Assembly: GCF_032878975.1 (NCBI RefSeq)
Contig: NZ_CP043875.1
Location: 248,001 to 312,000 of the forward strand
Length of the DNA stretch: 64,000 nt
Source: Methanoplanus sp. FWC-SCC4
Lineage (GTDB): Archaea > Halobacteriota > Methanomicrobia > Methanomicrobiales > Methanomicrobiaceae
Direction: 5' to 3'
Part shown: positions 52,086 through 58,095 of the stretch, piece after piece
Layout: each line of letters begins with the position of its first letter
Numbering within the stretch: the stretch's first letter is position 1
Notes under the pieces: generated by a model
The model's database searches: none
The model's input: the letters and a program-made list of their open reading frames with translations, nothing else
What the model was told of the DNA's origin: nothing
Translations under genes and position numbers: made by a program

Positions 52086-52095
52086 AGTCCTTATG

Positions 52096-52167
52096 GCCAA
52101 GGTGGCGGAGCGGCCACGCGGTCGCCTGCAGAGCGACTACACCCCGGTTCAAGTCCGGGCCTTGGCT
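52096..52167 (+). tRNA. tRNA-Cys (anticodon GCA), rRNA-operon copy
   Basis: The acceptor GCCAAGG pairs with CCTTGGC, with U73 as the Cys discriminator. The anticodon loop CTGCAGA has GCA. The T stem is CCCGG/CCGGG. It follows the 23S processing stem directly, as in many methanogens. A second copy at 57628 differs at four positions. Confidence 0.96.
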
Positions 52168-52240
52168 TCCTGAATAACTTTCGCAAGAAAGTTTGAAGGT
52201 ACAGGAAATCTGTGATTTCCGAATCGCGAAATTTCCTGTT

Positions 52241-52363
52241 CAATTGCGGCCATAGCAGTGGGGCAACACCCGGACTCATTTCGAACCCGGCAGTTAAGCC
52301 CACTTACGTAGGACGTTGTACTGAGATACGAGAGTTCTCGGGAACCGTCCAACGCTGCAATTG
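52241..52363 (+). rRNA. 5S ribosomal RNA, operon copy
   Basis: The ends CAATTGCGGC and GCTGCAATTG pair as helix I. Inside, GGCCATAGCAGTGGGGCAAC, TCGAACCCGGCAGTTAAGCC and TGAGATACGAGAGTTCTCGG follow the archaeal 5S pattern. The 123-nt gene is preceded by a spacer with an AACTTTCGCAAGAAAGTT hairpin and a second stem. Confidence 0.95.
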
Positions 52364-52382
52364 TTCTGCTAGAAGATTTGAG

Positions 52383-52402
52383 TTTTTTTGTTATGTTTTT
52401 TT
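52383..52402 (+). terminator. Terminator of the rRNA operon
   Basis: T7, GTTATG, T7 lies about 20 nt after 5S. The TTCTGCTAGAAGATTTGAGT before it is also found after the second 5S copy. Confidence 0.6.
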
Positions 52403-52529
52403 AATTGTAGTGCAAACTTTTGTAAAATTTCCGGTGTTTTTAATTTTGTAGTGTGAACTATGTTAAAATTTCCAACTTCTGAAAAGAATTTTGCATTATC
52501 CAAAAATGTGCAATAAAAATAAAGCGATT

Positions 52530-54687: not shown

Positions 54688-54948
54688 ATGACTATGGTAA
54701 TCAGGGTTCATGAGCAAAAGGATCTGATTGAAAAGGTAAAACTGGTATTTTCAAATTATACAGATCTGGATATTGTTATGGGGGAACTGGCTTCTCTTGG
54801 ATTTTTGAGAACCGGAGGCAATCCGGATATTCTGGCACTGGAAAATACAGAACTTGAGCTGTATATACATATTAACATAGACAACAACGAAAAAATTCTC
54901 AATTATGAGGTTCTTACATTTGATGATATAAAAAAGAGTCTTGAATAA
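54688..54948 (+). CDS. Small hypothetical protein
   Basis: This 86-residue acidic protein has a GxxG-like turn (FLRTGGNPD) and a helical N-terminus (DLIEKVKLVFSNYTDLD). TATATATT about 25 nt upstream suggests leaderless expression from the ATG. I do not recognise it. It is divergent from the sensor gene. Confidence 0.55.
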   Translation: MTMVIRVHEQKDLIEKVKLVFSNYTDLDIVMGELASLGFLRTGGNPDILALENTELELYIHINIDNNEKILNYEVLTFDDIKKSLE

Positions 54949-55018: not shown

Positions 55019-56410
55019 CTATTTTGTATTTACATTGCCTCTAAGGAGGCAGACAATTATATTCAGAATACAGATCAATATTGAAAATTCAAATATTATC
55101 TTCATGCTTTTGGTAAATTCCAAAAATAATTCACTGGTGATTTCAGATGTTCCAAGCATCAGGGTAAAGGCGGATGTGGCAATGCTGATACTGATGATGT
55201 TCCCTGTCTGTTCAAAAGTATTTGCAATTCCGGAAGCCTCACCATAATTATCCTCGTTAACGGAGCTCATTATTGCATTTTTGTTGGGGGAAGAAAAGAG
55301 AGCAAATCCGATACCTGATAGTGCCAGAAATGATGATATGGTTATAATATCTGTTCCTTCTCTTATTCCTGAGTAATATATCAGTGTTATAATTATCAGT
55401 GCCAGTCCTGCTGCTGTTACAAATTTAGGTTCAATTCTGTCTGATATGTGCCCTGCAAAAGGTGAAAATACTGCCTGTGTCAAAAATGCAGGGAGAAGAA
55501 TAAATCCTGCTGAAAATGATGAGATTAACATTTCATTCTGGAGATAAATACTCAGGATGAAGGTTATGCTGCCAATGGATATGTAATAGAGTATATCAGC
55601 TGCAATTGAATATTTGAATAAACGGTTATTGGTAAATAATGATAAATTTATTAGCGGATTTTCAAAATGATTTTCCCATAAACCAAACAGAACCAGCCCT
55701 GTAAGTCCGGGGATAAGGATAAAAGCTGAATATGGGGATGTCAGGTCTGACAGGCCTAAGACAAGTAGCATTATTGATGGTGAAAACACCAAAAGTCCGA
55801 TTATATCAAATTTGTCGGTATTTGTTTCATCAGGACTTTTAAAATTTTTGAATAATCTGAATGCGGCAAGTCCTGCAAGAATTGTGAATGGAAATGCGAT
55901 AAAAAATATGCTTTTCCAGCCTGTGTTTTCTATTAGGATTGTTCCGATGGTCATTCCTGTAATATATCCCGAGTAGCCGGAAAACAGGAAAAAGCCAAGC
56001 GACCGGCCTCTGCTTCCTCTGCCGTATGTTTTTGTTAAAAGGACAATGGATGATGCAACCATCATGCCGTCTCCAATCCCCTGTATGAATCTGAAGAATA
56101 CCACCATTTCCCCGTTTAATGCAATTCCGCACAAAAGGGATGAGATTCCAAAAATAAGACAGCCTGCGGCAAAAATTTTTATGTGTCCGTATCTGTTTCC
56201 GATTTTTCCGGAAGGAATTAAGGAGAGAATCATTCCGAGAAGATGTGCCTGAATGATAAAACCCATTATTTGTGCATTTAGATGAAAAGTCTGACCAATT
56301 ACAGGATTTGCAATTACTATTGATGAGATCATAAAATAGATAAAAAAAGCAGCAATGCCTGTGATCAGTGAAATTTGCAGTTTATCAGCAGGTATAATCT
56401 GGTTTCTCAC
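55019..56410 (-). CDS. MFS transporter, DHA2/EmrB-like
   Basis: The 463-residue protein has about 14 hydrophobic segments, as in the DHA2 (14-TM) drug:H+ antiporters. Motif A-like GKIGNRYGHIKI lies after helix 2, and IQGIGDGMMVASSIVLL is helix 4. GYSGYITGMTIGTILIENTG is the antiporter motif C region. It is probably an exporter of a toxic or small hydrophobic compound. The 450 nt upstream holds a small peptide frame and a palindrome. Confidence 0.88.
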   Translation of the reverse strand: MRNQIIPADKLQISLITGIAAFFIYFMISSIVIANPVIGQTFHLNAQIMGFIIQAHLLGMILSLIPSGKIGNRYGHIKIFAAGCLIFGISSLLCGIALNGEMVVFFRFIQGIGDGMMVASSIVLLTKTYGRGSRGRSLGFFLFSGYSGYITGMTIGTILIENTGWKSIFFIAFPFTILAGLAAFRLFKNFKSPDETNTDKFDIIGLLVFSPSIMLLVLGLSDLTSPYSAFILIPGLTGLVLFGLWENHFENPLINLSLFTNNRLFKYSIAADILYYISIGSITFILSIYLQNEMLISSFSAGFILLPAFLTQAVFSPFAGHISDRIEPKFVTAAGLALIIITLIYYSGIREGTDIITISSFLALSGIGFALFSSPNKNAIMSSVNEDNYGEASGIANTFEQTGNIISISIATSAFTLMLGTSEITSELFLEFTKSMKIIFEFSILICILNIIVCLLRGNVNTK

Positions 56411-56536: not shown

Positions 56537-56611
56537 TCAGACAAACATCTGAAGAATTGAAAGAACAAAGTCAAAAATCATTTTCCACCAGTCAAGATTT
56601 TCCCAGAACAT
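56537..56611 (-). CDS. Possible 24-residue hydrophobic peptide
   Basis: The frame ATG 56609-56611 to stop 56537-56539 encodes MFWENLDWWKMIFDFVLSIL plus QMFV. AAGGAG lies 9 nt upstream, an ideal ribosome site. The peptide has three Trp and an amphipathic, membrane-like helix, like small membrane peptides. It is divergent from the CARF regulator. No homology can be tested here; chance is possible, because the frame is very short. Confidence 0.45.
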   Translation of the reverse strand: MFWENLDWWKMIFDFVLSILQMFV

Positions 56612-56637
56612 TTTTAATAACTCCTTTTTTCCTGGTC

Positions 56638-56656
56638 GTTGTGTTTGTATTACACA
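56638..56656. promoter_or_regulatory. Palindrome, candidate operator
   Basis: TTGTGTTTGTATTACACAA has perfect 6-bp arms (TTGTGT/ACACAA) around a 7-nt centre. It lies upstream of the peptide ribosome site and is a candidate regulator site for the neighbouring wHTH protein. Confidence 0.45.
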
Positions 56657-56825
56657 ACTCCAATTAAAAAATAACCTCAATAGTTAAAAAAGATATTTAA
56701 TTAAAACGAATTATTGAATGTTATTTCTTATCATGCATTTTTTGGAAAGATTATTTACGCAAAAATCGTGCCAGAAATTAATATTTACATGCCGAATATT
56801 TCAAAATATCCTGTGTTTAAATGAC

Positions 56826-56837
56826 TTTATATTATAG
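56826..56837 (+). promoter_or_regulatory. TATA box of the CARF regulator gene
   Basis: TTTATATTATAG, 25-30 nt before the ATG, predicts an mRNA with almost no leader. Confidence 0.5.
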
Positions 56838-56861
56838 TAGGAAAAAATTTGTACGTTCAGC

Positions 56862-57557
56862 ATGAGCGTTAGTCACATAATTTTTGTCGGTCACCACAAG
56901 GAAAGACTGATTGATTCCATCAGAATGCTTGGGGATTATCCTATGGGGAGAGTTATTCTGGTAGTCGGGGAGCAGACCTCAAGCGGTGAAGAGAAGTCCA
57001 GAAAGATTGCAGAAGATATCAGCCACGATCTGGCCAATATTGTTGACAGCAGTATTGTTTTTGTAGACAAAAGGGATGTTACACGCGGTGCAATACAAAT
57101 TATCGGCATTATCAAAGAAGAAGAGGAGTCAGGCAACGAAGTAATAATTAATATAAGCGGTTCTTTGAGAACATTTGCAGTTGCTGCATACATTGCCGGT
57201 TCCATTACCAAATCCAGAATAATCACTTCTATTCCGCTTTATAATGATAATGATGAGGAGGTAGGTGTTGAAGAGGTCATTGATGTCCCGTCCCTTCCTG
57301 TCTGTTTCCTGCGTGATGAGCAGATGCACATAATTTTATCAATAGACGAAGGGGTGGATTCTCTTGATGAATTGATAGTAAGGATGAAGCCTTCCATTGA
57401 GAAATATTCCGATGAGTTTTACAAAGAGAGAAGCCGCGTTAGTCATCATCTCAAAGTTCTGGAAGAAAACGGGTTTATTATAAAAAACAGATATGGAAGA
57501 AATATTTCTGTTCGTTTGTCAGATCTCGGAAGCATGATGTGTAAAATTAACAGCTGA
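56862..57557 (+). CDS. CARF-wHTH regulator (Csa3/DUF6293-like)
   Basis: Residues 1-145 form a Rossmann-like CARF domain with the ligand-loop motif NISGSLRTFAVAAYIAG (near 97-113). Residues about 150-231 form a winged helix (YKERSRVSHHLKVLEENGFI). CARF domains bind cyclic oligoadenylates in CRISPR type III, and archaeal Csa3 proteins regulate adaptation genes. No cas gene or CRISPR array is in this window, so it may serve another signal. It starts almost leaderless and is followed by tRNA-Cys-5S. Confidence 0.78.
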   Translation: MSVSHIIFVGHHKERLIDSIRMLGDYPMGRVILVVGEQTSSGEEKSRKIAEDISHDLANIVDSSIVFVDKRDVTRGAIQIIGIIKEEEESGNEVIINISGSLRTFAVAAYIAGSITKSRIITSIPLYNDNDEEVGVEEVIDVPSLPVCFLRDEQMHIILSIDEGVDSLDELIVRMKPSIEKYSDEFYKERSRVSHHLKVLEENGFIIKNRYGRNISVRLSDLGSMMCKINS

Positions 57558-57627
57558 CCTGCAAAAATTTATCAGGTCAAAACCGATATCTTTTATTTTA
57601 AGTAATGCAAATATAAGAAGGAAGTTT

Positions 57628-57699
57628 GCCAAGGTGGCGGAGCGGCCACGCGGTCGCCTGCAGAGCGACTCCACCCCAGTTCAAATCTGGGCCTTGGCT
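57628..57699 (+). tRNA. tRNA-Cys (GCA), second copy
   Basis: It is the same as 52096-52167 except for A to C in the variable loop (57671), G to A and C to T in the T stem (57678 and 57688, which pair with each other), and G to A in the T loop (57685). The compensatory pair argues that both genes are functional. TATA-like elements (AATATAAG and TTTTATTTTAAG) lie upstream. Confidence 0.94.
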
Positions 57700-57756
57700 T
57701 CCTGAATAACTTTCGCAAGAAAGTTTGAAGGTGCAGGAAATCTTTGGTTTCCTGTT

Positions 57757-57879
57757 CAATTGCGGCCATAGCAGTGGGGCAACACCCGGACTCATTTCGA
57801 ACCCGGCAGTTAAGCCCACTTACGTAGGACGTTGTACTGAGATACGAGAGTTCTCGGGAACCGTCCAACGCTGCAATTG
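57757..57879 (+). rRNA. 5S ribosomal RNA, second copy
   Basis: Identical over all 123 nt to the operon 5S. The spacer from tRNA-Cys is shorter, since the second hairpin is reduced (CAGGAAATC...GGTTTCCTG), but the AACTTTCGCAAGAAAGTT hairpin is kept. It is a stand-alone tRNA-5S unit. Confidence 0.94.
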
Positions 57880-57900
57880 TTCTGCTAGAAGATTTGAGTC

Positions 57901-57918
57901 TTTTTTGTTAGTTTTTTT
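57901..57918 (+). terminator. Terminator of the second tRNA-Cys-5S unit
   Basis: T6, GTTAG, T7 after the conserved TTCTGCTAGAAGATTTGAGT. Confidence 0.6.
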
Positions 57919-58095
57919 ATTTATAGCGCAGACTATTTTGTAAAGTTTTTATTTTAAAATTAAGTTGCATATTCTTTTTGTAAATATTTATTTTTAAATC
58001 AGGCCGGTTATATTTAGCAGATATTACACTTTAAAATCCAAATTGTTATTATTCATTTAACCGTTTTAATAATCAAAACCAGGTTGCCTGAAAGA

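Follow-up and report, generated by a model that had tools for sequence, protein, structure and literature searches.

What does a CARF regulator sense and control when it is encoded away from cas genes? The question is raised by a locus in the complete genome of Methanoplanus sp. FWC-SCC4 (G000, 2.31 Mb), within the 64,000-nucleotide stretch of DNA that we analysed as a whole and call the window (G000:C1:248001-312000). An earlier note on this stretch had proposed a two-part stress or defence module, in which a CARF-wHTH regulator controls a membrane peptide of 24 residues encoded in the divergent gap. Both genes are there. The MFS gene downstream of the peptide had gone unmentioned, and it turns out to be, within the family, the most widely conserved partner of the regulator (6/6 genomes, against 4/6 for the peptide), which does not fit the module as it had been stated. 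Our best explanation, a serious candidate that falls somewhat short of being probable, is that the orphan CARF protein divergently controls a membrane unit made of the MFS exporter and an accessory amphipathic peptide (Table 1).

Table 1. Features of the CARF-MFS-peptide locus, with positions in the window.
Feature	Position	Strand	Evidence or remark
86-aa protein, convergent with the MFS gene	54688..54948	+	Conserved neighbour
MFS exporter, 463 aa, DHA2/EmrB-like	55019..56410	-	Pfam MFS_1 4e-46
24-aa peptide gene, MFWENLDWWKMIFDFVLSILQMFV including stop	56537..56611	-	Frame conserved in four genomes, selection, predicted amphipathic helix
Shine-Dalgarno AAGGAG ahead of the peptide gene	56621..56626	-	Sequence
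Palindrome GTTGTGT-N7-ACACAAC	56638..56658	.	Present, non-conserved
TATA box candidate for the peptide, CTTTTTTAACT (in relatives CTTTATAAATA-like)	56682..56692	-	Conserved upstream alignment block
CARF-wHTH transcriptional regulator, CARF3 / Csa3 / HFX_2341-like, 231 aa	56862..57557	+	
tRNA-Cys directly downstream of the CARF gene	57628..57699	+	Fixed landmark of the locus, 6/6 genomes

The regulator is what it had been taken for, a CARF-wHTH protein with a ligand loop. It matches Pfam HFX_2341_N (PF19810; 1.7e-13, 51.5 bits against a cut-off of 30), has a C-terminal winged helix, and aligns with the full length of the PADLOC CARF3 model PDLC01862 (residues 1-229, E 2.8e-103). The top PDB matches to its AlphaFold model (pLDDT 88.5, pTM 0.81) are the apo and cA4-bound structures of Csa3 (2WTE/6WXQ, E ~1e-8). 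The TM-score against these structures is ~0.45 over the whole chain, probably owing to a different relative placement of the domains. The loop N97-I-S-G-S-L-R103, invariant in the six family members, fits the CARF loop motif (D/N)-x-(S/T)-x3-(R/K) (PMC8844856). The protein falls below the cut-offs of the Csa3 family (TIGR01884, 38.8 vs 60.2 bits) and of the NCBIfam HFX_2341 equivalog (NF051475, 28.1 vs 500 bits).

This regulator is an orphan, as had been claimed: the scan of the window with Cas1 and Cas10 models gave no match, and the two Cas1 matches of the genome are both more than 1.2 Mb away. It shares with the haloarchaeal HFX_2341/DUF6293 regulators a CARF-like N-terminal domain, a winged helix and the position of a chromosomal orphan away from cas, and differs from them in length (231 aa vs 308 aa) and in its divergent arrangement with an MFS gene and a peptide (PMC11434293). 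HFX_2341 mainly represses genes of transport and metabolism, and can also repress cas genes (PMC11434293). Csa3 of Saccharolobus (2WTE, 6WXQ; PMC8844856) is alike in fold, being the best match, in loop motif and in regulator architecture; unlike a Csa3, the protein of G000 scores below the family cut-off and is not beside cas genes. MM_0565 of Methanosarcina mazei, a dimeric CARF DNA-binding regulator with global effects on transcripts, including those of membrane-protein genes, is by its description similar in being such a regulator in a methanogen, and differs in that its gene adjoins a type I-B cas operon (PMC7465815). A contig search with the CARF protein found close relatives that include a Methanomicrobiaceae metagenome-assembled genome, and on this ground the family is taken here to be Methanomicrobiaceae. 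In G051 (L049:6571-12003, reversed locus), a 48%-identical homolog adjoins type I-E cas3, cse1, a cse2-like frame and cas7, and the clade therefore includes cas-linked members.

Is the peptide real? The frame on the minus strand with its AAGGAG site, picked out by the earlier note, recurs in three other genomes, with homologs of all 24 residues (MFWENLDWWKMVLDFVIAIFQMFA in G007, MFWENPDWWKMVFDFVLAILQMFA in G019 and MFWENPDWWEMVFNFILAVIQIFA in G013) and with start, stop, length, orientation and location in the divergent gap identical to those in the window. The proposed check, to look for the peptide beside the CARF genes of other methanogens, thus found it, in synteny across four genomes of Methanomicrobiaceae type from two genera, and a GGAG-type ribosome site precedes it in all four. 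Pairwise pN/pS values are 0.10-0.21, the variable columns at codon positions 1/2/3 number 8/2/14 (Fisher P 0.0017), and under neutral simulation on a star tree the joint probability of so few replacements and no stop is ~1e-5. That a frame read without tools would be a chance ORF, as its shortness and lack of conservation in genus g2 could suggest, is scarcely credible against four homologs of equal length, substitutions biased to the third position and this neutral expectation. By these comparisons, the peptide is a genuine gene under purifying selection on its protein sequence. A longer, 47-aa version started at TTG (56537-56680) was ruled out, since in the relatives stop codons of this frame lie directly ahead of the ATG.

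The family appears to be new, with no match to a known one. Among 232 genomes of the order, a profile search returned only these four (E ~1e-16); among 393 genomes sampled from the phylum it gave nothing credible. No relatives were found in Pfam or NCBIfam, and 2.9 million viral contigs, scanned for exact matches with degenerate codons, contained none. Weak profile matches in other genomes (E 0.007-0.1) were partial only, and the strongest of them (G240) lies within a 438-aa transporter-like frame and was set aside as chance.

The earlier note had seen a hydrophobic helix in this peptide and taken it for a possible membrane peptide. A membrane-type peptide it may well be, and a plain transmembrane stretch is not what the sequence points to. 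The hydrophobic moment of residues 7-24 is 0.43-0.51, above that of ~99.9% of shuffles in each homolog (P <= 0.001). The polar positions 7, 10, 14, 18 and 21 share one face, and the replacements in the C-terminal half are mostly hydrophobic for hydrophobic. As a helix that crosses the membrane the stretch would be short, so an in-plane amphipathic helix would be the more natural reading. Such a peptide would lie along the inner face of the membrane, with a Trp/Phe-rich hydrophobic side and a narrow polar side formed by D7-K10-D14-A/S18-Q21.

The peptide gene shares its strand with the MFS gene, which starts 126 bp past the peptide stop in the window and is divergent from the CARF gene; the spacing ranges from 126 to ~350 bp among carriers. 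A strong hairpin lies 3' of the peptide stop in G007 (z -4.2), G019 (z -3.2) and G013 (z -3.6), and that of the window is weak (z -0.46) and overlaps the stop. The hairpin in three genomes and the variable distance to the MFS gene suggest that the peptide may have a discrete transcript, as its own unit, and the conserved TATA-like block upstream would be its promoter. Control by leader peptides does occur in bacterial exporters. The frame could likewise be a cis-acting leader, in which translation or stalling at Trp codons and the downstream hairpin set transcription into the MFS gene by attenuation. Its place upstream of this gene on the same strand, its tandem Trp codons and the three hairpins between the two genes would fit. 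We nevertheless hold this to be quite unlikely, because selection maintains the residue pattern throughout, amphipathic helix included, whereas amino-acid-sensing leaders keep mainly their sensing codons; the distance to the MFS gene is also highly variable, and the hairpin is weak in the window genome. The variation in distance includes G013 (L004/L022), where the interval from the peptide to the MFS gene is taken up by AT-rich tandem repeats of ~30 bp, ATTTAGAAGTAAAAGATTAGAAATTAAAAT-like.

The earlier note had pointed to TTGTGT-N7-ACACAA (56639-56657) as a candidate binding site of the regulator. The repeat exists, as a single copy in the genome. As a conserved operator it was rejected, being neither conserved nor beyond chance: it differs in G019 (TGTGT-N8-ACACA) and is missing from G007 and G013 in the gap alignment, so that none of the three relatives has it in this form, and the gap holds six inverted repeats of six bases of this kind against 6.3 expected in shuffled, AT-rich sequence. 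It makes the 5' region of the window genome fold more stably (z -2.6), and probably either arose by chance or forms a 5'-UTR stem peculiar to this genome. Immediately after the TATA-like block comes another inverted repeat, AATCAAA-N7-TTTGATT, whose arms match fully in G013 and have degenerated in G019, G007 and G000; it is too weak to claim as an element. In G037 and G057 (L008/L010), about ten iterated TGTAGA(T/C) motifs occupy ~250 bp before the start of the CARF homolog; this array could be an operator array, and none was seen there in G032 and G042.

Among 28 genomes treated as Methanomicrobiaceae, six have the CARF gene (G000, G007, G013, G019, G001 and G008), and an MFS ortholog (43-55% identity) adjoins it in exactly the same six. 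The other 22 have neither, their MFS matches being paralogs (<=36%), with the proviso that the incompleteness of several CARF-less genomes leaves some of these absences uncertain. CARF and MFS are thus inherited together. The best NCBIfam score of the exporter is to efflux_EmrB, below the cut-off. The 86-aa neighbour is probably not part of the module, because family genomes without the CARF gene also have it. Outside the family, none of the CARF homologs adjoins the family's MFS ortholog. In genus g14 (G037, L046:7096-8322, reversed locus, and G057), an MFS gene of a different subfamily lies two genes downstream of the CARF homolog, possibly as an independent CARF-MFS neighbourhood.

The peptide follows this pair in four of the six genomes. 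The two of genus g2 lack it and have a gap of 255 bp, and since they keep CARF and MFS genes, the exporter does not need the peptide there. These genomes, and the promoter-like block that the peptide has of its own, would also fit a functional pair of CARF and MFS with an unrelated small gene sharing the gap. We judge this unlikely: the peptide occurs in this gap only, in all four carriers among the 232 genomes of the order, and genomes without CARF and MFS genes, G022 for example, lack the peptide as well.

The block is next to tRNA-Cys throughout, and its rRNA-operon side is kept wherever the contig extends that far. The window has two copies of a cassette of tRNA-Cys and 5S rRNA (52095-52429 and 57627-57947, 91% identity over 338 bp), of which one ends the rRNA operon and the other follows the CARF gene; in genus g8, tRNA-Cys was found only after CARF. 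A mobile island bounded by these direct repeats was considered and dropped, as the position of the CARF-MFS block, between rRNA operon and tRNA-Cys, is constant across three genera. Downstream of tRNA-Cys, G019 (L021:3288-12576) encodes a phage-type integrase, a Cdc6-like AAA protein, a PLD-helicase and a type IIG restriction enzyme, and G007 (L020) begins similarly, with integrase- and Cdc6-like frames and then restriction-modification-like ones. The tRNA-Cys by the CARF gene has the appearance of a site where defence cargo integrates.

What could the regulator sense? Two Cas10 models and a Cas10 palm model were used to search for Cas10, which is present in G007 and G008. They gave nothing in G000, G019 and G001; in G013 there was no palm match, and one full-length Cas10 model gave a weak partial match. 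Because no Cas10 turned up in three of the four genomes with the peptide, the cyclic oligoadenylates of type III CRISPR are not a general ligand, and cA4 is unlikely to be the ligand where Cas10 is absent. A c-di-AMP synthase domain is encoded in all eight genomes checked, two of them without a CARF gene, and is a possible source of ligand. One could go further and propose that the CARF protein senses a nucleotide messenger not made by Cas10 and controls an MFS and peptide unit that exports or gates this nucleotide or a linked compound. We regard this as very improbable; if true, CARF signalling would serve membrane physiology, not defence. In Listeria, the MFS pumps MdrM and MdrT export c-di-AMP, and their regulator, BrtA, is of the TetR type and binds bile. 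The likeness lies in a multidrug-type MFS exporter beside a regulator, with a cyclic nucleotide in play; the difference is the TetR-type, bile-binding regulator, and export of nucleotides by the archaeal MFS protein would be conjecture.

The distribution of Cas10 also bears on whether the peptide is a toxin-like membrane effector, silenced by the CARF protein and freed on a nucleotide alarm, with the MFS protein as a neighbour or a detoxifying pump. A short Trp/Phe-rich amphipathic helix, encoded by a separate gene that has a ribosome site of its own and, in three genomes, a 3' hairpin, is what such an effector could look like; CARF proteins are mostly linked to defence, and the G051 homolog is itself beside cas genes. 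Against this, the net charge of the peptide is -2 to -3, whereas pore-forming peptides are typically cationic; no candidate antidote or antitoxin gene, nor antisense evidence, was seen; the g2 loci keep CARF and MFS genes without the peptide; Cas10 was mostly not found in the peptide genomes; and the synteny, from rRNA operon to tRNA-Cys, is of a vertical kind, not a mobile pattern. Such an effector seems rather unlikely.

In the explanation that we prefer, divergent control of an exporter and its accessory peptide, 1) the CARF protein would bind the intergenic promoter region shared by the divergent genes; 2) a nucleotide-type ligand, usually not made by Cas10, would bind the CARF domain and change the expression of peptide and exporter; and 3) the peptide would act at the membrane as an accessory or tuning small protein for the MFS exporter. 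The fixed position of the peptide in four genomes, the co-occurrence of CARF and MFS genes, the intact fold and ligand motif of the regulator, the selection on the peptide and its amphipathicity, and the precedents of HFX_2341 and of small proteins with transporters in M. mazei are in favour of it, and gene order suggests that the regulator acts on the peptide as well. Against it, no conserved operator was established, and the CARF homologs outside the family are not beside this MFS gene. The alternatives stay alive because the g2 genomes lack the peptide and the spacing is variable.

Very small proteins that act on a transporter, or are encoded with one, have precedents in methanogens. In Methanosarcina mazei, sP36 works with the transporter AmtB1 (PMC10714827), and sORF_05 is encoded in the operon of a trimethylamine permease (PMC11456600). 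By their descriptions both resemble the present peptide in being very small and membrane-associated, and both differ from it in the type of transporter and in having no CARF link. The components of the locus are thus of known kinds, and the pairing of CARF, MFS and peptide appears to be new. With it, a previously unmatched family of 24-residue archaeal proteins, supported by evolutionary conservation, joins a field with few characterised small proteins.

CARF proteins have been studied almost entirely as receptors of CRISPR alarms. Here, one of them is tied by inheritance to an exporter, in genomes that are mostly without the enzyme for the known alarm nucleotide, and the compactness of the locus makes the question of what an orphan CARF protein senses and controls a testable one. 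For these Methanomicrobiaceae, the locus suggests a switch for a membrane unit rather than for CRISPR genes.
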